From a virus, in the IMG/VR virus record IMGVR_UViG_3300008448_000339, positions 1 to 33,825 of that record: a stretch of 33,825 bases of DNA; one strand, written 5' to 3'. Under the pieces are notes generated by a model. The model was not told the DNA's origin. It worked only from the letters and a program-made list of their open reading frames with translations, and did no database searches. Both the position numbers and the translations under genes were made by a program. Below, piece after piece: positions 9,570 to 22,156 of the stretch (position 1 is its first letter; every line of letters starts with the position of its first letter).

Positions 9570-10091
9570 TTATTTTCGATATGCCGGAGAATCATTATTT
9601 CCTCCATACCGTATATTACGTATTTGTTGTTGAGTCAATCTAGTTGCGTGTGCATTACAGATTACAGATACACTATAACCGTGTTCTGATCCATTTGGCC
9701 AAGTATCAGGATTTTTTCCAACAAAATATTGATTTGCATCAACACCATCAATTTCATAGTATTCATTATCCCAAAACACAATATCTCCAACTTCAGGATA
9801 AAAATCAGCTCGTTCTAATATGTCTCTAGATATTGCAAATTGCGATGTACGAGTATATGTATGACCATAATCATCCATAACTGGATTTTTCTGATCTTTA
9901 GTAATTAAACATGGTATTAATATAGAAGCATAATATGCTTTTGACTCAGATTCACCGTAAATATTTGAATTACTATGTTCTACATTGAGTTTAAAAAATT
10001 CAATCTCAGTGTCAACTACAGCATTCAATAATTCTCGATTGATAGAAGCTAAAAATCTAGCATCCCGTTTTCCACCAAATAACGCACACAT
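9570..10091 (-). CDS. 14: Neck / head-completion protein, gp14-like
   Basis: This 173-aa protein shows the pattern of T4-type gp14 and related head-closure proteins. It has an N-terminal helix, then NIYGESESKAYY (about 43-54), then a beta-barrel-like section with GDIVFWDNEYYEID (102-115) and NQYFVGKN (120-127). The segment describing an object that must be in the right format before an enclosing barrel (GDIV..W....YEI) is typical of stopper proteins. A good Shine-Dalgarno (AGGAG) lies six bases before the ATG. It sits immediately after the gp13-like gene, as neck genes do in T4-like phages. In the virion it would seal the packaged head below the portal and accept the tail. It is shorter than T4 gp14 (256 aa). 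The family is a pattern-level judgement. Confidence 0.6.
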   Translation of the reverse strand: MCALFGGKRDARFLASINRELLNAVVDTEIEFFKLNVEHSNSNIYGESESKAYYASILIPCLITKDQKNPVMDDYGHTYTRTSQFAISRDILERADFYPEVGDIVFWDNEYYEIDGVDANQYFVGKNPDTWPNGSEHGYSVSVICNAHATRLTQQQIRNIRYGGNNDSPAYRK

Positions 10092-10100
10092 ATATATCTC

Positions 10101-11324
10101 CTATCCAACATATATTTTTAATGGAACTTTTGCAAGCATTTCATTCATTTGATTTGCTTCTGCATTTTGACGAGTCATCATATTTTCTCGACTCATTTTA
10201 TCTAAAAATTCCCGAAGCTGTGCAATTAATGATTCTTTTTCTGCTTGTCCTTGTTGTATCAGATCCGACCCGTTTAGTGTTACCTCACCGCCTGGTATAG
10301 GAACTGAAGAATATTTATTTCGAACATATCCTAACATTTCTTTTACAAGTGCAGCACCATATCTAATGATCCAAGCACGGCCCATATCATTAATTTTACT
10401 ATATGTTTGATACGTATATGGTATATTTGATGCGTCCGAAACAGATCCTGTTATTAGTGCGGTATTACCAAATAATACAGCATCATTAGTTTTCTGTTCT
10501 TCAAATAAAAATTCAAACCAAACAGTTCCAAAATACTGCGTAGCCATCGAGCCTTGAGTTCCAGGTATTGGAAATATACGCATATCATCACCATGTATTT
10601 CAAATGAAAAATGAGATTTACGTATCTGATCATTAAATTCGATTGCTTGTAATCTCAATAAATCTGCATGTATTGGCATCATCATGAAACTAACTGCAGG
10701 TGAAAATGCACCAAACCCAAATGCATCTAACATTTGTTGTGAACCTAAACCAGTACCAACAAATGGATCAAAATATCTAACAATTGCAGGCGGTGGATTA
10801 TGAAGTACTTTTCTAATTTCAATTGAACTAGTTGAACTAAGTGTGATACCCAATGACTGCTCAACTGCTTGTTTAATGCTATAAGTTTGTTGTTTATCTA
10901 TTAAATCAAATGAAGCTGAATACCATTTTGTTGTACCGCCACTACCTGCTTCTGTTCCATATGCTTTTGATAACTTAGTTATATATCCTAATGATTGTCC
11001 TACCACTTTTCCTGTTAAACCATCAGATCCTAAAAAGGATGCATCGGTTTGCATCCCTAGAGTATTAACTAAATTATTTATGATATTAACTTGATTTATT
11101 TGGTTTGAATATTCAATTACCGCAGATTCAAATGCCGTATAAAAGTTAATATCTACCAATTCAACATCCATAATGGGATATCCAACATATTGTGCAGCAT
11201 ACTTTGCAAAACTATCTGCTTGTTGTTGAAATGTTACATCAGAATCAAAAAAACCAAATGGTGTTTTACCCGGAGAAAATGATGAGCTTCCGGGCCATAT
11301 TTGTCTGTTTTCTGAGTAGTCCAT
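10101..11324 (-). CDS. 13: Neck protein, gp13-like adaptor
   Basis: A 407-aa protein. Residues 45-76 contain YVGYPIMDVELVDINFYTAF, the pattern of T4-type neck/adaptor proteins (a small helical bundle with LG.P...VEL.D......I..A...Y). The remainder is longer than T4 gp13 (309 aa) and holds a Gly/Ser-rich surface region and a helical C-terminus ending in a Met/Asn-rich tail (about 365-400). AAAAGGA lies five to six bases before the start codon. The AT-rich box at 11338-11346 lies upstream. Its position just before the gp14-like gene supports a role as the first ring bound under the portal after packaging. Family membership is inferred from motif and order, not from an alignment. Confidence 0.6.
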   Translation of the reverse strand: MDYSENRQIWPGSSSFSPGKTPFGFFDSDVTFQQQADSFAKYAAQYVGYPIMDVELVDINFYTAFESAVIEYSNQINQVNIINNLVNTLGMQTDASFLGSDGLTGKVVGQSLGYITKLSKAYGTEAGSGGTTKWYSASFDLIDKQQTYSIKQAVEQSLGITLSSTSSIEIRKVLHNPPPAIVRYFDPFVGTGLGSQQMLDAFGFGAFSPAVSFMMMPIHADLLRLQAIEFNDQIRKSHFSFEIHGDDMRIFPIPGTQGSMATQYFGTVWFEFLFEEQKTNDAVLFGNTALITGSVSDASNIPYTYQTYSKINDMGRAWIIRYGAALVKEMLGYVRNKYSSVPIPGGEVTLNGSDLIQQGQAEKESLIAQLREFLDKMSRENMMTRQNAEANQMNEMLAKVPLKIYVG

Positions 11325-11337
11325 TATGTCCTTTTCC

Positions 11338-12416: not shown

Positions 12417-14066
12417 CTATAGTATGTTCAAACCGTGAACGTATACCTTACCGTAAAATTCTGGGCGGACAACCTTCTTAGCGTAACGAGTCATTACACC
12501 TTTTCTAGGAGTGAAGTTAATTGGATCGTAAACTAATGGAGTCATAATCAATGGAATATATGGACTAAATACAGCACCAGTTTCAAGGAATTGTGTTCCT
12601 CTGAATCCCATTAGAATTACGTTTTCTTTCATGTATGGGTTTTTGTAAACTGTGTATCTGTTATTGATAGCACCAATTTTTTGAACACCAGCGGCAAATT
12701 CCATCTTAGTTCCATCAGTATCGGCAGCAAATCCAGGAATAGATTCAAGGATAGTTGCAACAGCAGGAGAAGTTACTAAGAAGTTAGCACCACCTCTTAA
12801 GGTTTTTTGGTGAATTTTGTTAGATACTTTTTGAAGTTTAGTACCTAAAGTTTGGAACCAACCACCTTGAGTGTTATAGAAACCATCACCAGCAGCGGTA
12901 GCAGCACCTGCAGAAGTTTGACTAAATGCAGAACCGTTCCATACGTTGTTATTCAATGCTGACCAATACTCGGTAGTTGGAGCTGCAGAAATCAACATAT
13001 CTAAGATCTCTAAATCAATCTCCATTGATACATACTCTGATAACATTGAAGTTAATTCAGCTTCAGCATCAATTGAGTGATAAGCATTAAGATCTTGAGC
13101 GAATTCAGGAGTCCAAACTGCTTTCAATTTTCTTGTTTTAGCAACGATTGGATCTGATTGCATTTCTAAGTTTAATTCAGGAATATCAATATCAACATTG
13201 TATCCGTTAGAAAATGCACCTTTGTTATCTTCAAAATCACCTCTTGATACATCAGTTGGTTGTTTGCTGAATACTAATTTCAAGTTGCTAGCAGAAATTG
13301 CAGTTTGAATTGCAGTAGCTTGAGCAGTGGTTACAACAAATGTAGTTGCGTAAGCAGAATCAATTTTAGAAAATGCTTGTACTGGGATAATTTCAGTGTT
13401 AGCAGATCCTGAAGTTAATACGAATGATCTAACTGCATATAAATCAGCAGAAGATGGAGCAGTGAAAGTTACTTTCTTGTAAGAAGATAATGAAGCAGAA
13501 TATGTTCCATCAAAGTTTACATCAATTGGATCAGTAATAGAAGCAGTAGTTGCAGTTACTAATGAAGAAGTTTCGTTAATTGAATAACCAAATCTTCCAG
13601 CACCATAAAGACCACCAGTAGGATCACCAGTTGTAGTAGTAACACCAAATAAAGAGTCATCAGCGTTAGGAGAACCAAATGGATCACCAGTTCTATTTAA
13701 ATTGTCGTTATCAAAACCAGGTTGAGATGTACCATATTTAAAGTCTAGATAAAATACAAGACCTGAAGGTAAATTCATTGGTTGTACTGATACGAATTCT
13801 TTTGCAGCAAACTCAGCAAAAATTCTTCTTACTAATGGTAATGCTACACCAGCCCACTCTTCAGAACCAGCAGCGGTACCTGTTTGTGAAGCTTCTTTTA
13901 CTAACTGACGAGCTTGGTTCTCTAATAATTGAGCCATACCAGCTGTTTCAGTTTCAGTTTTTAGGCCTTCTAATAGACCCGTTTTTTGCCATTTGCTAAC
14001 TAGCGACTTTGCAGCTAATCTTTGAGATGCATCTGGGCTTTGTAATAAATTTTTAATGTTACTCAT
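12417..14066 (-). CDS. 23: Major capsid protein (gp23)
   Basis: A 549-aa protein typical of T4 gp23 in length (521 aa) and layout. The N-terminal region (1-65) is helical with LAAKSLVSKWQKTGLLEGL and GMAQLLENQARQL, followed by GSEEWAGVALPLVRRIF (68-84) and LPSGLVFYLDFKYGT (99-113), signature stretches of the family. Two LLE sites (31-33 and 47-49) fit the (L/I)xE cleavage rule of the T4 prohead protease, so the N-terminal part may be removed at maturation. A strong AAAGGAA lies ten bases before the ATG. It follows the scaffold gene after a 32-base gap and ends before a hairpin. It forms the hexamers of the shell. I saw no separate gp24 vertex gene here. Confidence 0.93.
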   Translation of the reverse strand: MSNIKNLLQSPDASQRLAAKSLVSKWQKTGLLEGLKTETETAGMAQLLENQARQLVKEASQTGTAAGSEEWAGVALPLVRRIFAEFAAKEFVSVQPMNLPSGLVFYLDFKYGTSQPGFDNDNLNRTGDPFGSPNADDSLFGVTTTTGDPTGGLYGAGRFGYSINETSSLVTATTASITDPIDVNFDGTYSASLSSYKKVTFTAPSSADLYAVRSFVLTSGSANTEIIPVQAFSKIDSAYATTFVVTTAQATAIQTAISASNLKLVFSKQPTDVSRGDFEDNKGAFSNGYNVDIDIPELNLEMQSDPIVAKTRKLKAVWTPEFAQDLNAYHSIDAEAELTSMLSEYVSMEIDLEILDMLISAAPTTEYWSALNNNVWNGSAFSQTSAGAATAAGDGFYNTQGGWFQTLGTKLQKVSNKIHQKTLRGGANFLVTSPAVATILESIPGFAADTDGTKMEFAAGVQKIGAINNRYTVYKNPYMKENVILMGFRGTQFLETGAVFSPYIPLIMTPLVYDPINFTPRKGVMTRYAKKVVRPEFYGKVYVHGLNIL

Positions 14067-14098
14067 GATTTTTTATTCCTTTCGAATGTTTTTAATAA

Positions 14099-15028
14099 TT
14101 ATAGTCCAGCTAATTTTTTCCATCTATTAGCTAATTCAAAACCTTCTGTTAAAATTGGTTTAGATTCTGGCTTAGTTGAAGCTACTGGTTTAGAAGCGTA
14201 AGATTCTTTTACTACTCTCTTAACTGCAGGTTTAGCAAAACTTTCAGCCATTGTGCTAAATACTAATTTTACTTCTCTGGTGTTTCCAGCTCTATCAAAT
14301 GATTCTAGAACTTTCATTTTTTGATTTTCGTTCAAATCAAAATTACGGAACAATTTGTTTGTGTAAAGCAATTTAGCGTTTAACAAATTAACTTCGTTGA
14401 TGATAGATTTAAGTTGACGAACTGTTTTGTAAGCTTCTTCTAATTCAGCTTTAACTTCTTTCAATTCTTCTTCTTTTTCAACAGGAGCTTCTTCTTCTTC
14501 AGTTTCTCTTAAGATAGCTTCGATGATTTCGTCGATGTTTTCTCCTTCTTCAGAATCATCTCCACCAAAACTACCATCATGTTTAGCATATCCAAGATCT
14601 TCAGCTTCTTCCATCGGAGCTTCCATTGTATCACCTTCTAATTCACGAATAATAGATTCTAAATCTAAATCTTCGTTGTATTCTTCTTCTGGTGCCATTT
14701 CTTCTTCTGCATCCATTTCCATTTCGCCTTCTACTTCACCAGCTTCTGGCTCATAAATAATTTTACCTGCAGGTTCTGGAAGATCGAATTCTACTTCATT
14801 TTCTCCTTCTACTTCATCACCCATTGCATCTACATCTAGATTCATTTCAGCATCTACTGGCTCTTCCATTTCTTCATCTTCTAATTCTTCAGAAAGTTTA
14901 GCAGCTAACATGCTTTCGATTCTAGGGGCAAATGCTTCTTGTAACGCAATTTTTGCATTTGCTAACGCCGTTTCTTTAACGGTTCTAGCATCAGCAATTG
15001 CTTCTTTAAGCAAATCTGATTTTGCCAT
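14099..15028 (-). CDS. 22: Prohead core scaffold protein (gp22-like)
   Basis: A 309-aa, strongly acidic protein. Residues 1-45 are an amphipathic helix (LKEAIADARTVKETALANA). Residues 46-185 are a Glu/Asp/Met-rich, probably disordered tract. A coiled-coil helix follows (about 185-250, with LKEVKAELEEAYKTVRQLK), and the C-terminal 60 residues are Lys-rich. This layout and the position directly before gp23 match T4 gp22, the core protein around which the shell assembles and which the protease then degrades. A clear AAGGAG lies eight bases before the ATG. The gap upstream carries hairpins and a terminator, so this gene may begin its own transcript with gp23. Confidence 0.8.
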   Translation of the reverse strand: MAKSDLLKEAIADARTVKETALANAKIALQEAFAPRIESMLAAKLSEELEDEEMEEPVDAEMNLDVDAMGDEVEGENEVEFDLPEPAGKIIYEPEAGEVEGEMEMDAEEEMAPEEEYNEDLDLESIIRELEGDTMEAPMEEAEDLGYAKHDGSFGGDDSEEGENIDEIIEAILRETEEEEAPVEKEEELKEVKAELEEAYKTVRQLKSIINEVNLLNAKLLYTNKLFRNFDLNENQKMKVLESFDRAGNTREVKLVFSTMAESFAKPAVKRVVKESYASKPVASTKPESKPILTEGFELANRWKKLAGL

Positions 15029-15060
15029 TTGTTTTTCTCCTTAAATTTGTTTTTTGGAAA

Positions 15061-15080
15061 TAAGACTATTCAGAGTCTTA
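15061..15080. other. Perfect inverted repeat in the gp22 leader
   Basis: TAAGACT-ATTCAG-AGTCTTA: 7-bp arms with a 6-nt loop, 33 to 52 bases before the gp22 start codon. It could form a hairpin in the gp22-gp23 leader RNA or be a protein-binding dyad. Confidence 0.45.
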
Positions 15081-15102
15081 ATAGAAATTAATAATAATAA
15101 GG

Positions 15103-15126
15103 ACGTTATATAAGAACTAATAACGT
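15103..15126. other. Second perfect inverted repeat in the gp22 upstream gap
   Basis: ACGTTAT, a 10-nt AT-rich spacer, then ATAACGT. The arms are perfect 7-mers. It lies between the terminator after bS21 and the hairpin nearer gp22, in the longest gap of the window. It may be an operator-like dyad or an RNA hairpin. Confidence 0.4.
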
Positions 15127-15163
15127 ATTTTAAAATAAATACCGGGTAGTTTGAAAAACCAGT

Positions 15164-15193
15164 AAAAAAGCCCTAACTTTAATAGCTAGGGCT
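15164..15193 (-). terminator. Rho-independent terminator after bS21
   Basis: On the coding strand AGCCCTA, an 11-nt loop and TAGGGCT form a 7-bp GC-rich stem, followed at once by a run of six T. It begins ten bases after the bS21 stop. In a window this AT-rich, the GC-rich stem stands out and is the best terminator here. Confidence 0.8.
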
Positions 15194-15202
15194 CATTTTA
15201 AC

Positions 15203-15451
15203 TTATTGATTTTCTTGTCTTGTTCTTAATTTTTGAAAAAATCTAGCATTGATCAATTCCATTCTTTGTTCTACGCTTTTCTTTACAAATTCTTGTCTAG
15301 ACTTTACTTTTTCTAAAATTCCAGAACTTTTAACTTTTCTTTTAAATGTTTTCAATGCAAAAGATAAATCTTCTTTTGTAGTTCCAACTACTTTTACTCC
15401 TAATCCAACTCCTGGATAAATTGATTGATGTTGTTTTTGTTTTTTGTTCAT
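15203..15451 (-). CDS. rpsU: Ribosomal protein bS21 homologue, Bacteroidota type
   Basis: An 82-aa basic protein. Residues 18-76 match small-subunit protein bS21: GVKVVGTTKEDLSFALKTFK, then RKVKSSGILEKVKSRQEF, then KKSVEQR and FFQKL. The SRQxF...SV..R...AxxxQKL pattern is that of Bacteroidota bS21 and not the enterobacterial form with its YEKP and long Arg-rich tail. An 18-residue N-terminal extension (MNKKQKQHQSIYPGVG) is added. bS21 sits on the 30S platform near the 3' end of 16S rRNA and affects initiation. Some phages are known to carry bS21, so incorporation into host ribosomes is plausible. The gene lies between core genes and scaffold, ends in a terminator, and has no Shine-Dalgarno sequence of its own. 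Confidence 0.85.
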   Translation of the reverse strand: MNKKQKQHQSIYPGVGLGVKVVGTTKEDLSFALKTFKRKVKSSGILEKVKSRQEFVKKSVEQRMELINARFFQKLRTRQENQ

Positions 15452-15468
15452 ATAACTGGTTTTATAAA

Positions 15469-16086
15469 TTAAATTTGTGGTTCTGGTGCTACTTTTGGTT
15501 TTTGTCCTCTTACATTGAAACGGAAATGTTTTATTTCTGGTTTCTGACTGATATATCCTTGTATTTGTTGAGATTCTTTTGCTGGATCTTCTCCTAATCT
15601 AAATTGAAAATATCCTACTTTACCAGATGGAGATAATTTAGATTTAATAACATATATTTTTTTCTTTGCAGCAAATTGTTTTATTTCATCAAATACATTT
15701 TCTGCGGTAGCTGGATCAAATAATACAAATTCAACTCCACCTCTATAATCAGTAATTTTATTTAATAGTTGAGCTTCATCTACTATTTCTTCTTCTATAT
15801 TTTTAGAAATAGCTTTTCTTCTCTTTTTTAAATACTCATCTGAATTATCTACGGTACCATCATTATTAATATCAGAATCTTCTTTTCCTACCGGATCCAA
15901 TCCATCTTCAATATGTAATCGACCTTTTGTAGTTTTCAATACATTCTGTGCAGCTAATACTTTTTTTGGATCTTTAGTGTCATCTGCAGATAATACTACA
16001 TCTTTTGTAGGATCTGGTTTCTTTCCGAATGAAGTTTGTTCAGTTAAACCAAAAAAGTCACGATACATTTTTTTAAAAATATTCAT
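15469..16086 (-). CDS. Prohead-region protein with an EF-hand/dockerin-like loop
   Basis: A 205-aa protein with AAAGG seven bases before the ATG. Residues 72-83 (DINNDGTVDNSD) match a calcium-binding EF-hand or dockerin loop, with D72, N74, D76, T78, D80 and D83 at ligand positions 1, 3, 5, 7, 9 and 12, followed by EYLKKRRKAI. The C-terminal half (about 105-195) looks like a compact alpha/beta domain (GGVEFVLFDPATAENVFDEI and KVGYFQFRLG). It lies between the protease-linked gene and bS21. A structural or core role is inferred from position. The motif is clear by eye, but calcium binding is unproven and the C-terminal domain is not recognised. Confidence 0.7.
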   Translation of the reverse strand: MNIFKKMYRDFFGLTEQTSFGKKPDPTKDVVLSADDTKDPKKVLAAQNVLKTTKGRLHIEDGLDPVGKEDSDINNDGTVDNSDEYLKKRRKAISKNIEEEIVDEAQLLNKITDYRGGVEFVLFDPATAENVFDEIKQFAAKKKIYVIKSKLSPSGKVGYFQFRLGEDPAKESQQIQGYISQKPEIKHFRFNVRGQKPKVAPEPQI

Positions 16087-16128: not shown

Positions 16129-16506
16129 TTATTGAACATCATAATATCTGTTTAATGCAGAACCAATATTTTCATATGCCATAGATAAACGTTCTTGCAA
16201 TTGTGAAATTTCTTTTGCAGTCTCTTCAAACATTTTATAATCTTCTTCTAATCGTTTAAAATGTCTTTTGTGAGCCACTTCATTAAACCAATCACCCTCT
16301 TCTAATGCAATAGCTTGAGCTTTTTCTACAATATTTTTTACTCGTTCACATAATTCTTGCAAATTGCCTTTTCCATAAACAGATTCGCCCATTGCAGAAA
16401 AATTTTTTAAATCAGTAACAAATTTACGTTTTTCTTCAATTGATAATGGCATTTTTTCATTTTCACCATGTACCATTTCATATATTACTTTTAAATTGCT
16501 TTTCAT
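16129..16506 (-). CDS. Helical core-region protein downstream of the protease
   Basis: I place the start at 16506, giving 125 aa. TAGGA lies about six bases before this ATG, and it begins one base after the protease stop, suggesting coupled translation. An in-frame ATG at 16530 would overlap the protease by 23 bases and has no such signal. The protein is mostly alpha-helical, Glu/Lys-rich and coiled-coil-like, especially the last 60 residues (HFKRLEEDYKMFEETAKEI). No catalytic motif or membrane span is visible. Small helical proteins in this place in T4-like phages are often internal core proteins, which is the best guess. I do not recognise the family. Confidence 0.6.
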   Translation of the reverse strand: MKSNLKVIYEMVHGENEKMPLSIEEKRKFVTDLKNFSAMGESVYGKGNLQELCERVKNIVEKAQAIALEEGDWFNEVAHKRHFKRLEEDYKMFEETAKEISQLQERLSMAYENIGSALNRYYDVQ

Positions 16507-16507
16507 A

Positions 16508-17149
16508 TTATATCCTACATTTTCCATCATCGCATAATATAGATGTAATTATACTATTTACGCGTGAATATTTGTTTGTGATGTTATTTTCATTTATTTT
16601 TGGATCTACTGATTCATGCATTTTCATTGGTCGCATAAATGCTCCATGAGTCGATGGATTGGATACAAAGTCCCAACAAATTAATTCAAAATCTTCTTGA
16701 ACTTCGACAGCACTTTCGTTTCTTAATTCTTTAACAGATCCCAATCCTCTACTAGAAATACCTAATGTAATACCAGCTTTAAACAAAGCTTTTAATATAT
16801 TACCAGATGGTGTTTCTAATATTTGAACAGCACCTTTTAAATCATCACCATCCCACCAAATTTTCAATACATTGTGAGAAACGTTATTTAAATTAACAAC
16901 CGATGTCTCTGGATGATCTAATTCTCCCAACGCTCTGTGTTGTTGAATATATTCTTGTTCATATCTACGACATTCTCTTTCTAAGATATGTTTTGGATAT
17001 ATACGACCATTTTGATTTTTTGCTCCTGCTCTTTGAAGTACACCATGCACAACAAATCCACCAGGGATACCATAATCAGCACCTGCAGATTCATTTAATG
17101 AACCAATTGGCTTAAATGGCATGAAATCAAGTATTAATTGTTTTGACAT
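16508..17149 (-). CDS. 21: Prohead core protease (gp21)
   Basis: A 213-aa protein, the same length as T4 gp21 (212 aa). It is a serine protease that processes core and capsid proteins inside the prohead. GVLQRAGAKNQNGRIYP (36-52) is the usual N-terminal signature. The likely catalytic His79 is in GELDHPE and the Ser in GISSRGLGS (130-138, Ser132 or Ser133), with an Asp in WDFVSNPST (159-167). The C-terminal 40 residues are less conserved, as expected for a self-cleaved tail. AGGAG lies ten bases before the ATG, within the end of the previous gene. It sits between portal-associated genes and scaffold, the T4 order 20-21-22. Confidence 0.9.
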   Translation of the reverse strand: MSKQLILDFMPFKPIGSLNESAGADYGIPGGFVVHGVLQRAGAKNQNGRIYPKHILERECRRYEQEYIQQHRALGELDHPETSVVNLNNVSHNVLKIWWDGDDLKGAVQILETPSGNILKALFKAGITLGISSRGLGSVKELRNESAVEVQEDFELICWDFVSNPSTHGAFMRPMKMHESVDPKINENNITNKYSRVNSIITSILCDDGKCRI

Positions 17150-17154
17150 AATAA

Positions 17155-17829
17155 TTATTCTCCTAACGATCTTACTCGTTCTGCAATTTTAATTAATCGT
17201 TCTGAAATTTTATGTAAACTTTTTCTAGTTGCATTTCCATAATGATTTGATGTTACACCGGCTTCTGTCTTTAGCTTACTATTATAATTAACGAGTGTTT
17301 CAATTTCATGCAATTTTTTTGCAATTTCACGAATTGTACTGTTTACTTTCTTTACAGGAGATGTGTCTGGATCAGAATTTATAAATTTTCGATATGATTC
17401 TAAAATACTTTCGTATTTATTATCGATCATTTCACCTAATTTTTTCATATGCGTGGTTCGATCTGGTTTATTAGATTGGCCTGGGGTATCTACTAAAACT
17501 TTAGATGGATATTCATTTGGATTATTATACCAATCGTTGTCTTGAGATGCCCATGCAAATTTATCCATAAATACTTCTTCTTCGCTTTCTGGTTTTTGAT
17601 ATTCTCCAATTTTATACGAAGGTGGAGTATTTACTGATTCATATTTTGCTTTTTTCTGTTTCCATTTACCAGGAGCAGCAAAAGCAGCCGGTGTATTATA
17701 TCCAGCAATTGCCCCAGTTACATTTTGTTCATCAATTTCGTCATCCGAATCAGATTCTACCTTTTTTTCTAGTTCCGATTCTTCAATTTTGATAAACTTA
17801 TCCTCGATTTCTTTTATGAAAGATTTCAT
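17155..17829 (-). CDS. Conserved unknown between portal and protease
   Basis: A 224-aa protein whose ATG overlaps the upstream stop by four bases (ATGA), indicating translational coupling. The first 35 residues are acidic and helical. A conserved-looking segment VTGAIAGYNTPAAFAAPGKW (37-56) follows, then a Pro/Tyr/Asn-rich middle and a helical C-terminus (about 140-224, with STIREIAKKLHEIETLVNY). Motifs like AGYNTPAAF recur in phage proteins of head clusters as I recall them, but I cannot name a family. No membrane span or enzyme motif is visible. A core or internal head role is inferred from position only. Confidence 0.65.
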   Translation of the reverse strand: MKSFIKEIEDKFIKIEESELEKKVESDSDDEIDEQNVTGAIAGYNTPAAFAAPGKWKQKKAKYESVNTPPSYKIGEYQKPESEEEVFMDKFAWASQDNDWYNNPNEYPSKVLVDTPGQSNKPDRTTHMKKLGEMIDNKYESILESYRKFINSDPDTSPVKKVNSTIREIAKKLHEIETLVNYNSKLKTEAGVTSNHYGNATRKSLHKISERLIKIAERVRSLGE

Positions 17830-18714: not shown

Positions 18715-20538
18715 TTATAAAATGTTATTTTCGTCTAATAATGTACCAGCATCTGTATTACGGGCATCAATATTTTCAAATAACATTTTCGTAGTTTTAG
18801 ATTTACCTGATATTCGATTTAAAATATCTTTATTTTCTTTTGATAAAGAAGTTTTTCTATCTCTAACAGTTGGCTGAAATGTTCTATTTAAATTTTGAAA
18901 GTCAAATGCTTGTCGTAATTCTTTTTTTCCGGTCGGATCCCATCCAAATGCATTTGCATGTTGTCCCGATTTAATTCCTTCTTTTGGACGTCCACCTAAA
19001 TCTTTTTCTTCTACTTCGTTGCTACTCATATGAACGGTAGCTAAATCATGTGGCGTTCCATAAGATACTCCGGTGATAGCGGGATCATTTCCTTCTTGTT
19101 CAATTTGATTTTGACGGAATCTCAATTTTAAATCTTCAATAATATCATTACGTTCTTGTAACCATTGTTCTTCAGACATATTAAAGATATATTCATAAAT
19201 GTATCGATCTGAAACTAATTTACTATCTTTCATTGTGTTAGCTAATTGAATTTTTTCATTCATTAAAGCTACTTTTTGTTGATCGTAAATTATAGATGGA
19301 GCAGTTAGTTCTAATTCAAATCCAACTAAATCTTCTCCTTCAAATCCTTGTGTGTATAAATGAACTATGGCAATCTTTGTTAATTCAGAAACCATTATTT
19401 TTTGTATACGTTCTATTGTTCTAGCAAAACGAATATCCATAGAAGCTAATGTTGTTTTACCTTCAACTTCTTCAGCATATCCTAAAAATGGTTTTGGTAT
19501 TTTTAAACCAGCCATCATTTTATTTTTTACATATTCAATATCTTCAATTCCGGTAAAAGTCATACCAGGTAATGTATCAATATTAGTAGAACTTTGTCCT
19601 CCTCGAACTGGCAAGTAATAATCTTCTAACATGTTATTAAGATTAAACTTAAGATTGTAGTTTCCGGTACTTTGATCTACATGCGGTATCTTTTTCATTT
19701 TATTGATAATGGTTTCCATGAAAGTATCAACTTCATTTGGTGGAATATTACCAATATCAATTTTAAATATACGTTTTTCTGGAGCTCGCATAATACGATG
19801 TATTAGCATTGCATCTTCTAATAAAGTTAATTTTTGAAATTCTTTACGAGCTCCTTCTAACATACTTCTACCGTATGGTAAAAAATTAGAGTCTGACATT
19901 AATCGGAAATGTGCAATTTCAAAAACATCATATTCTTGTTTTGGCCCCATTAAGTGATTAAATTTAATTTTATAATCACCAGTTTTTTCATCATATTCTT
20001 CTAATCGCTCAACTTCATATGAAGATAATGGTCTTGCATTTAAGATACCAATTTCTTCTGCAATATCCAATTTTAAAAAGAAATCTCCATATTTTGCCAT
20101 GTTTCTAATCCATGGCCACAAATTAAATTCAATATTTAAAACATCATAAAATAAATTATAAAGTATTTTTTGTATGTTTGTTTTATTACTTTTAATTGTT
20201 AAAATTTCTCCAAATTGATCTGCTAATGTAGATTCATCTGCGTATATATCAAGTGCAGAAGAAATGATAGGATCTTTATCCATCATTTCATAATCAGCAT
20301 ATAGCTGTATACGATTTTGTGAAGTATTGTAATTAGTATCAAAACTACCAAATCCGCCAGCTTTATGTGGGCTACCACTATGTAGTCTAGTATAACGGTC
20401 GGTTATTTTTGTTTGTGTTATATTTCCGCGAGATTGTAAACGGTTGGTGTCGACTACTCTTACTTTATCTTTACCATATGCTCGTACAATAACATTGGTA
20501 CTAAATAAATTTTGTAATCTTTGTCTTAATGAAGCCAT
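18715..20538 (-). CDS. 20: Portal vertex protein (gp20)
   Basis: A 607-aa portal protein somewhat longer than T4 gp20 (524 aa). It would form the dodecameric ring at the DNA entry vertex, nucleate prohead assembly and bind the terminase. Family features include QNRIQLYADYEMMDKDPIIS and ALDIYADEST (about 76-107), NLWPWIRNMAKYGDFFLK (about 140-157), LPYGRSMLEGARKEFQKL and EDAMLIHRIMRAPEKRIF (about 220-258), GMTFTGIEDIEYVKNKMM and KPFLGYAEEVEGKTTLAS. The extra length is mostly a Lys/Arg-rich C-terminal tail (about 500-607). It follows the terminase by 40 bases with no sheath or tube gene between them, unlike T4. There is no Shine-Dalgarno; an AT-rich box lies 25 nt upstream. Confidence 0.93.
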   Translation of the reverse strand: MASLRQRLQNLFSTNVIVRAYGKDKVRVVDTNRLQSRGNITQTKITDRYTRLHSGSPHKAGGFGSFDTNYNTSQNRIQLYADYEMMDKDPIISSALDIYADESTLADQFGEILTIKSNKTNIQKILYNLFYDVLNIEFNLWPWIRNMAKYGDFFLKLDIAEEIGILNARPLSSYEVERLEEYDEKTGDYKIKFNHLMGPKQEYDVFEIAHFRLMSDSNFLPYGRSMLEGARKEFQKLTLLEDAMLIHRIMRAPEKRIFKIDIGNIPPNEVDTFMETIINKMKKIPHVDQSTGNYNLKFNLNNMLEDYYLPVRGGQSSTNIDTLPGMTFTGIEDIEYVKNKMMAGLKIPKPFLGYAEEVEGKTTLASMDIRFARTIERIQKIMVSELTKIAIVHLYTQGFEGEDLVGFELELTAPSIIYDQQKVALMNEKIQLANTMKDSKLVSDRYIYEYIFNMSEEQWLQERNDIIEDLKLRFRQNQIEQEGNDPAITGVSYGTPHDLATVHMSSNEVEEKDLGGRPKEGIKSGQHANAFGWDPTGKKELRQAFDFQNLNRTFQPTVRDRKTSLSKENKDILNRISGKSKTTKMLFENIDARNTDAGTLLDENNIL

Positions 20539-20578: not shown

Positions 20579-22156
20579 TTACAAAAGCCATGTTAAATTT
20601 TCAGATCCAAACCCATTATCCCATTTCCACGAATCATTTGGTTTAGATTTTCCTGTATAAATAACATTATTGCTAGTTTTTTGAAATGCGTTTAATGCTC
20701 GTTTATTTAAATCAATTCCTTGCTGTCTTAATTTGAGTGAAGTGTCTCGCAACCAAAGTGCGATACAAAAAGACATAACCAAATCATCATTATAACCTTG
20801 CTGTGATTGTGCTTTACCATTTAACCATATAAATACAAATAGTTCTTGTATTAATCGTTTACTACGTATAATAGGTGTTTTTTCACGCATATACATCTCC
20901 AATGCTGATATCATTAATGGTCTAGTTCTTGCAGTTGTAGATACGCCAGGAACCATTTGTGATTTGTCTTTCATATCATAGCCTTTTTTCAACTGCACAT
21001 TAGTATCAATATACCCATCATCTTTATATGTATAAACTAAATTAGCATATCCTCGATCGATAGCTGGTTGTATTGCTGCCCAACCAATGTTTGCGTTTTC
21101 AATTGCTAGTAACGCATTATTCCATTCTGTTGCAACTGATACTAACATGTTACCAAATTCATTAGGTGGTATTTTTCCTTTATATTCTGCTACTTGTCGT
21201 ATGTCTTGTACATCAATAACATGAAATGTAGACCAGTCTGCGCCATCGCCTCGAGCAACATCCGCTACAACCATATAATCTCGAGAATAATCTGGATACT
21301 CCCATACCCAATATGCATTGTCGTATCCTCGCTTTTCTATAGGTTCTGTACATTTTGATTCGTATTCTTGTAATAAATTTCCGTCAACTACCGTATGTCC
21401 AGATGATATAAAATCACAATCACATTCCTGCGCAGCGCCATGTTCTCCTAATAATCTAGTTTGTTCATTACGCCATTCTGAATCTCGTTCTGGGTGTACG
21501 TCCCATTTTAATCTAATCGTATGAAATCCATTTGTACCAGATTCAGCATCTGCCCATGTTTGATGAAACCAATTACCAATACCATTTGGAGTAGACAATA
21601 CAATAGCACCACCACCGGTTGATAATGTTGCTTGTGATGCGATCCAAATTTCTTCAATGTTTCTAATAAATGCAGCCTCATCAACAATTAATAATGATAA
21701 TGCTTCTGAACGAGCTCCGGTTGATGCACTAGATATTGCTTTTATTTGAGAACCATTTTTGAATTTCAATGATAACTTGTTATTCGATGTTATAGTAGTT
21801 TTTAACCAACTTGGTAAATGTTCATTCATTATTTGAACTTTACTTACTAAGTTTTTTGCTACATCTTGTGTGGTTGCAATAACTAACACATTGAAATCAT
21901 CATTAAATAACATAGACCATAATGCAAAACCAGCAGTTAAAGTGGATATACCTAACTGTCTAGATTTTAGTATTATATTATATCTATTATCTCGTAATTC
22001 AGTTAATGAATCTTCTTGAAATGGAAATAAATTAAATTTTATTTTTCCTCGTTTAGGATGTTGTATATAACAATACTGTTTCATGAAAAAAACAGGATCT
22101 GCAGCACATTTCATGTACTGTTGTTGAATTACTTGTTTTAAATTTGCTTGTGCCAT
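20579..22156 (-). CDS. 17: Terminase large subunit (gp17)
   Basis: A 525-aa packaging motor that hydrolyses ATP to drive DNA into the prohead and cuts the concatemer. The ATPase half has a Walker A-like KSRQLGIST (64-72), Walker B LLIVDEA (155-161) and coupling motif STPNG (188-192). The nuclease half has the three acidic sites D299 (VADVARGDGADWS), E353 (IENAN) and D457/D458 (YNDDLVMS). It is shorter than T4 gp17 (610 aa), lacking much of the N-terminal extension and C-terminal tail. Its ATG overlaps the upstream TGA (TGATG), so translation is probably coupled. I see no clear gp16 small subunit; the small genes upstream are candidates by position only. Confidence 0.95.
   Translation of the reverse strand: MAQANLKQVIQQQYMKCAADPVFFMKQYCYIQHPKRGKIKFNLFPFQEDSLTELRDNRYNIILKSRQLGISTLTAGFALWSMLFNDDFNVLVIATTQDVAKNLVSKVQIMNEHLPSWLKTTITSNNKLSLKFKNGSQIKAISSASTGARSEALSLLIVDEAAFIRNIEEIWIASQATLSTGGGAIVLSTPNGIGNWFHQTWADAESGTNGFHTIRLKWDVHPERDSEWRNEQTRLLGEHGAAQECDCDFISSGHTVVDGNLLQEYESKCTEPIEKRGYDNAYWVWEYPDYSRDYMVVADVARGDGADWSTFHVIDVQDIRQVAEYKGKIPPNEFGNMLVSVATEWNNALLAIENANIGWAAIQPAIDRGYANLVYTYKDDGYIDTNVQLKKGYDMKDKSQMVPGVSTTARTRPLMISALEMYMREKTPIIRSKRLIQELFVFIWLNGKAQSQQGYNDDLVMSFCIALWLRDTSLKLRQQGIDLNKRALNAFQKTSNNVIYTGKSKPNDSWKWDNGFGSENLTWLL

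Follow-up and report, generated by a model that had tools for sequence, protein, structure and literature searches.

The window, a virus record of 33,825 bases, carries on its minus strand an ORF of 82 aa with an ATG start (15203-15451), whose product belongs to the ribosomal protein family bS21. The product scored 37.4 bits (E 2e-9) with the profile PF01165 (Ribosomal_S21), for which the curated cut-off is 27 bits, and 30.0 bits with TIGR00030 (cut-off 28.95). Its core lies at about residues 26-69 and all three motifs SRQEF, SVEQR and FFQKL are present, so that the bS21 core and the motifs named in the original prediction were confirmed. The gene sits among T4-like head genes and all large neighbours are encoded on the same strand, namely the terminase large subunit (20579-22156, PF03237), a gp20-type portal protein (18715-20538, PF07230), a gp21-type prohead protease (16508-17149, PF03420) and a gp23-type major capsid protein (12417-14066, PF07068). 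Portal, protease and capsid follow each other as in the head module of a T4-like myovirus. The predicted placement between capsid assembly genes was likewise supported by the Pfam matches, with the protease on one side and the capsid gene, preceded by a scaffold-like gene, on the other. The scaffold-like gene (14099-15028, minus strand) encodes an acidic protein of 309 aa, matched no Pfam or PHROG family, and owes its putative role to its position upstream of the capsid gene. A terminator-like hairpin of 11 pairs followed by a T run (15168-15194, minus strand) lies right after the bS21 gene. A tRNA scan gave no tRNA in the window and one in the 17 pieces scanned.

Two genes lie between the protease and bS21. 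The gene directly upstream of bS21 (15469-16086, minus strand, 205 aa) ends 17 bases before the bS21 start, and its residues 56-103 or so (with DINNDGTVDNSDEYLKKRRKA) match five different PHROG families, as if a small common module were shared. The second gene (16129-16530, minus strand) encodes a helical protein of 133 aa, which a profile detected in 69 of 70 loci with bS21 (bS21-positive) and in one of 57 without it (bS21-negative). This protein had no family matches and its fold search was empty; a role in the prohead core or as a partner of bS21 is possible. The sole bS21-negative locus that encodes it, L451, has a longer version of 343 aa, which may be a remnant state. A similar link had appeared in tblastn searches for gene 17155 (66/70 against 1/57), but was discarded, as a profile found this gene in 22 of the 57 bS21-negative loci. 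The leader of the scaffold-like gene (15029-15202, minus strand) contains the hairpin TAAGAC-TCTGAATA-GTCTTA. A 6-bp stem with a loop ending in AAT(A/G) was observed in 58/69 bS21-positive and 39/56 bS21-negative scaffold leaders, compared with three and one, respectively, after shuffling. There were 32 distinct 5' stems, indicating that the stem sequence varies while pairing is kept. This hairpin is independent of bS21.

Alignment with bS21 of Flavobacterium johnsoniae (7jil chain z) placed residue 27 of the window protein at residue 10 of the bacterial protein, which leaves about 17-18 extra N-terminal residues (residues 1-18, MNKKQKQHQSIYPGVGLG), and placed Phe71 at Tyr54. The predicted structure (mean pLDDT 79.1, pTM 0.42) has helices at residues 26-43, 45-51 and 58-81 and a short N-terminal helix of low confidence; fold comparison with this model yielded no useful match. 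A first scan returned 80 viral loci with bS21 relatives and homologous neighbours, and bS21 was on the same strand as these in all 80. In ten compared pairs dN was lower than dS, indicating purifying selection. With 80 viral relatives in the same gene order and strand, and dN below dS, the gene is real and more than a chance ORF.

The original prediction had regarded the extension as new and had named it and the Phe-Phe near the C-terminus as places of possible functional difference. The extra residues are present, but they are common to all 80 relatives, whose N-termini read MNKK[QE]KQH (the search patterns included MNKKQKQH itself), and phage rpS21 with an extended N-terminus has been published before (Al-Shayeb 2020, PMC7162821). 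Related extensions, e.g. MNKKHKIWQSHIPG, MSKKQKHFESIIPG and MGKNYKHIQMTLPG, also occur in loci that were retrieved through their capsids without regard to bS21, so that a basic N-terminal extension with P-G marks a wider clade. Phe is the commoner residue at the Tyr54 position within the family (49 Phe, 30 Tyr) and the Phe-Phe is thus no peculiarity; the position is aromatic in 79 of 79 scorable sequences, while two of the 81 are truncated and could not be scored.

Among solved structures, the best match of the single window sequence was 7jil (27.3 bits), the F. johnsoniae ribosome (Chen 2022, PMC9723584). A profile built from 16 of the 81 sequences in the bS21 family alignment (A2) gave 49.5 bits with 7jil, 40.3 with 9i5v and 30.6 with the next structure. 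The structure 9i5v we take to be from Bacteroidales. When the profile was instead built from nine proteins of other N-extended clades, the scores were 49.8 bits for 9i5v, 47.0 for 7jil and then 39.1. The profile scores support a bS21 of Bacteroidota type, as predicted, since the family profile places 7jil 9 bits over 9i5v and 19 over the rest. The best 80 cellular loci kept of 504 confirmed were all from Bacteroidota by title, although they derive from a single biased search pattern. Phages resembling Microcystis phage Mel-JY01 (L082, L332-L355) belong to the same head-gene family and carry in the same slot a bS21 that is not of Bacteroidota type; the profile of these proteins matched another structure group best, which is presumably proteobacterial, with 44.7 bits compared with 30.0 for 7jil. 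Judging from these sequences, bS21 seems to be exchanged or to follow the host.

Several head genes of the window are preceded by Shine-Dalgarno (SD) sequences, a feature of the mRNAs that the original prediction had missed. On the minus strand, AAGGAG was found before the scaffold-like gene (15037-15042, -8.2 kcal/mol), AAAGGA before the capsid gene (14077-14082, -5.9 kcal/mol), AGGAG before the protease gene (17160-17164, -7.3 kcal/mol) and before gene 9570-10091 (10098-10102, -7.3 kcal/mol), and AAGGA before gene 10101-11324 (11329-11333, -5.5 kcal/mol). Gene 12027 also has an SD. The leaders of bS21 (+0.9 kcal/mol), portal (+2.3) and terminase (+1.0) have none. The same division was seen throughout the family: at -4.5 kcal/mol or stronger, SDs preceded all 75 protease genes, 96% of 72 scaffold genes and 98% of 49 capsid genes, and none of 79 bS21, 27 terminase and 44 portal genes. 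In a wider set with a looser cut-off, portal (0/46) and terminase (0/29) genes of the window family were still negative. When 87 dereplicated loci were compared, SDs preceded 49.6% of 564 genes of at least 100 aa in bS21-positive loci (shuffled leaders 11.7%) and 9.5% of 619 in bS21-negative loci (shuffled 4.7%). A GGA peak at -7 to -13 was present in bS21-positive loci only, and its position indicates that it marks SDs and not promoters.

The leader of the bS21 gene itself (15452-15481, minus strand) has no SD and is unstructured (0 kcal/mol), and GTTAT stands directly before the ATG. No SD was detected on the phage bS21 gene in any of 122 loci covering all N-extended clades and a clade around L249 (0/112 without the latter, 0/81 in the family). 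Cellular rpsU starts, of which 79 of 80 were readable, had an SD in 74 of 79 cases, 73 of them at -10 kcal/mol or stronger (median -13.1); the very strong SD typical of autoregulated Bacteroidota rpsU is absent from the window gene. Being SD-less and unstructured, the bS21 leader could be translated by host ribosomes that are blind to SDs, outside the feedback of the host. GTTAY right before the bS21 start (15452-15456 in the window) was observed in 38 of 70 loci and, for five other late genes taken together, in two of 534 leaders. A host-type bS21 gene in a 735-kb phage (L454, LR756501, position 19997) has the strong SD AAAGGAGG (-11.8 kcal/mol), as if host-like feedback persisted there.

Carriage of bS21 and SDs on the capsid gene were compared in loci with a visible protease-capsid slot and a capsid of at least 480 aa (206 of 331 kept), which were reduced to 127 by removal of capsids at least 93% identical. 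A cut-off of -4.5 kcal/mol was used for a comparison with 54 relatives, the first tree, the GGA positions, the SD rates of nested lineages and the within-contig test, and one of -3.9 or -4.0 kcal/mol for the wider sets (111 loci, gene counts per clade, 127 loci), where it was loosened because borderline capsid leaders had been seen in Mel-JY01-like phages. ORFs were called crudely, with the first ATG as gene start, and SD rates obtained in this way are rough. In the 127 loci, 68 had both bS21 and a capsid SD, 57 had neither, two had bS21 only and none had the SD only. The two exceptions were L288, which has bS21 and a scaffold SD but lacks the capsid SD, and L424, in which the start codon was misplaced; L424 was left as a miss in this count and scored SD-positive by hand for the trees (AAAAGGGA precedes an upstream in-frame ATG). 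The picture was the same with a stricter cut-off and with exact SD words: at -4.5 kcal/mol the 111-locus set gave 53 loci with both, 55 with neither and three with bS21 only, and exact words preceded the capsid gene in 55/57 N-extended bS21-positive loci, 0/7 nested bS21-negative loci and 0/50 outer bS21-negative loci. None of the 54 bS21-negative relatives with visible protease and capsid genes, Flavobacterium phage immuto included, had a capsid SD. It was thus shown that bS21 and the capsid SD are present together and absent together. SDs also preceded the protease gene in 77/77 bS21-positive and 4/48 bS21-negative loci, and gene 10101 in 31/31 and 0/34. Scaffold SDs occur without bS21 in part of the outer clade (10/53 at -4.5 kcal/mol; 13/59 in the wider set), in a leader with the conserved hairpin, and capsid and protease are for this reason the better markers.

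The first tree, with 87 loci, contained one single change of state, so that the association was not independent evidence and loci were sampled by capsid similarity inside the bS21-positive clade. Several bS21-negative lineages proved to be nested in this clade (L308/L296/L292/L295, the L302 group, L430 and L451). PF01165 was absent from 11 full nested records, among them records of 142 kb and 98 kb, and from two more, though the records may be fragments. The first of these lineages had SDs at 7.0% of 129 gene starts and the second at 7.3% of 178, which is background level, and neither had capsid SDs (0/9 and 0/13), whereas in larger N-extended bS21-positive clades 38-68% of gene starts had an SD. 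A 140-kb stretch of one nested bS21-negative record had SDs at 2.2% of 138 genes. On the capsid tree bS21 changes five times; the SD follows in five of five independent pairs on the best tree and in three of three on supported branches only, and a five-gene tree (76 of 127 rows) likewise gave three of three on supported branches. With only three to five independent changes there are too few for significance (sign test on state changes, p 0.25). The coupling is consistent over the nested lineages, yet gain and loss are indistinguishable.

Within three bS21-positive contigs (109.6, 75.5 and 157 kb), a larger share of genes had SDs at up to 12 kb from the capsid gene (11/23, 14/25 and 7/20) than at more than 20 kb from it (19/77, 11/38 and 19/130). 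Fisher tests gave p 0.04-0.05 for each contig, and the pooled counts of 32/68 and 49/245 a stratified p of 2e-4. Three bS21-negative contigs had no such excess near the capsid (near 1/22, 2/15 and 2/19; far 2/107, 1/31 and 7/140).

The notion that any phage bS21 brings SDs with it was dropped, since regions with an unextended bS21 of host type had no clear SD excess; these comparisons cover 13-46 genes per region around bS21, possibly not the late region. In three huge-phage regions of this kind, SDs were found at 3% (L455), 8% (L456) and 5% (L457) of starts, and in a fourth (L454) at 22%, with 17% in the control. IMG/VR loci with host-type bS21 gave 18% with a control of 12% (L247), 12% with 19% (L248) and 31% with 23% (L256). 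The capsid relative L452 (LR756508), with an unextended bS21, gave 18% compared with 14%, and its capsid leader, at -3.0 kcal/mol, is below the cut-off. L257, with a bS21 lacking the aromatic residue and a GC content of 50%, had SDs at 44% compared with 6%. In the clade around L249, whose bS21 is unextended and lacks the aromatic residue, SDs preceded the capsid gene in 8/8 and the protease gene in 0/10 cases. SD coupling is therefore not general to phage bS21.

According to McNutt 2023 (PMC9976891), SDs go unread by ribosomes of Bacteroidia because the 16S tail is held by bS21, bS18 and bS6. In F. johnsoniae, translation led by an SD increases when bS21 is lost or carries Y54A, and the SD of host rpsU, an autoregulated gene, is extraordinarily strong (McNutt 2023). 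We lean, if narrowly, towards a reading in which exchange of bS21 lets ribosomes read the SDs of the phage late genes. Late in infection the phage protein would displace host bS21 from the 30S platform and would leave the anti-SD usable, or help to hold the SD-anti-SD helix, probably through the basic N-terminal extension, which would lie close to where the mRNA passes. Genes for late head and tail proteins, with SDs of about -5.5 to -9 kcal/mol, would then have an advantage over host mRNAs without SDs. The SD-less bS21 gene would be translated first, by the unmodified SD-blind host ribosome, and would escape the feedback to which host rpsU is subject through its strong SD. Compared with the SD of host rpsU, those of the phage are much weaker, so that they would be expected to have little effect on the unmodified ribosome. 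The fuller proposal, that N-extended bS21 opens the hidden anti-SD, that the late leaders evolved to match and that the bS21 gene was kept readable by unmodified ribosomes, is more tentative and falls somewhat short of an even chance. From the bS21 type and the kinship with a Flavobacterium phage we infer a Bacteroidota host, and the entry of the protein into ribosomes, the freeing of the anti-SD, the role of the extension and the order of events are likewise inferred. Several points speak against this mechanism. The family has retained the aromatic residue to which blocking of the anti-SD is ascribed, and blocking is what Chen 2022 infers; SDs are not confined to the surroundings of the capsid gene but also occur at a distance from it (19/77, 11/38 and 19/130); the capsid SD is missing from L288, scaffold SDs occur in part of the bS21-negative outer clade, and unextended phage bS21s go with no clear SD excess; and state changes are few, with no significant phylogenetic test.

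An SD-reading host would explain much of the pattern. bS21-positive phages would then infect SD-reading hosts and their bS21-negative relatives SD-blind Bacteroidota, both bS21 and SDs being marks of the host. Mel-JY01-like phages, with their other type of bS21, have SDs also on the portal (11/16) and bS21 genes (14/17), which resembles plain use of an SD-reading host, and a search for the phage capsid gene in Bacteroidota genomes found no host for the window family (0/296). The Bacteroidota promoter motif TAnnTTTG was tried as host evidence and rejected, as most contigs had no clear enrichment. We nevertheless regard a host effect as unlikely, though a serious contender, because SDs are absent from N-extended bS21 genes (0/112) and from the portal (0/46) and terminase (0/29) genes of the window family, because SDs concentrate near the capsid block, unlike in Mel-JY01-like phages, and because the bS21 is of Bacteroidota type.

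The proposal of Chen 2022 (PMC9723584), in which phage bS21 mimics the host protein and keeps the anti-SD blocked, would have phage mRNAs favoured through another contact, and the late-gene SDs would serve another purpose or bS21-lacking ribosomes. The aromatic residue kept in 79/79 scorable family members agrees with this, as do the host-type phage bS21s without SD excess. Mimicry does not, however, predict the disappearance of SDs along with bS21 in nested lineages, nor the peak in SD position; the coupling speaks against anti-SD blocking by phage bS21 in this clade, and we consider this explanation improbable. Least probable is a chance linkage, in which a gene block would on a few occasions have brought in or removed bS21 along with the SD leaders, the two having no functional link: the changes of state are few and gene 16129 vanishes together with bS21, but nested bS21-negative lineages are at SD background over whole loci and not in a replaced block only, as is the 140-kb stretch (2.2% of 138 genes), and 55/57 N-extended phages have retained the capsid SD despite their divergence.

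The preferred reading, in which the bS21 exchange opens ribosomes to SD leaders, bears on two older questions. A report of 2019 described bS21 encoded by phages, and a preference for phage mRNAs is its presumed effect; the literature found, as far as available, names no mRNA feature as its target, and the coupling supplies SD leaders as a candidate. Why Bacteroidota ribosomes are blind to SDs is a puzzle in its own right, and nature would here offer a system where exchange of one protein may reverse that blindness. If the fuller proposal is true, the swap of one ribosomal protein would act as a two-step translational switch and yield, during natural infection, a specialised ribosome moulded by selection on bS21 as well as on its mRNAs.

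Much of the frame is in print. Replacement of host bS21 by phage bS21 has been proposed (Mizuno 2019), as has late bS21 expression that favours phage transcripts (Chen 2022, PMC9723584); the latter source infers that phage bS21 keeps the anti-SD blocked, and relates that bS21 of HTVC008M enters E. coli ribosomes. For huge phages, N-terminal extensions of rpS21 were noted and preferential initiation was proposed (Al-Shayeb 2020, PMC7162821), whereas the extension is absent from the four Bacteroidota-type bS21s of huge phages compared here, and the genes around them show no clear excess of SDs. Phage bS21 beside capsid genes, N-terminal extensions and the favouring of late genes had thus been described before. 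The predicted favouring of late genes is supported in so far as SDs on head genes are coupled to bS21, but the idea as such was published (Chen 2022). What is new is the coupling of phage bS21 with SDs on capsid, scaffold and protease genes; no report linking phage bS21 with SDs in phage genes was found in the open-licence literature. The freshwater Bacteroidetes phages of clades a-e (Chen 2022, PMC9723584) share with the window a Bacteroidetes-type bS21 with an aromatic residue at position 54, encoded among terminase, portal, protease and capsid genes. Their bS21 is on the strand opposite its neighbours, whereas in the window and in 80/80 loci of the first scan it is on the same strand, and the available text of that paper contains no SD analysis of phage genes. 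The cultivated relative immuto (NC_055915) has the same head-gene order and a capsid 56% identical, but no bS21 in its 160 kb, and its capsid, protease and scaffold genes lack SDs. Microcystis phage Mel-JY01 (PP395634) has bS21 in the same slot and strand and late genes with SDs; its bS21 is of another type, without the MNKK extension or the aromatic residue, and the bS21 gene itself has an SD. With bS21 of F. johnsoniae the window protein shares the core and the aromatic residue over the 16S tail, and differs in that host rpsU has an extraordinary SD, while the phage gene has none and its protein carries the 18-residue extension.
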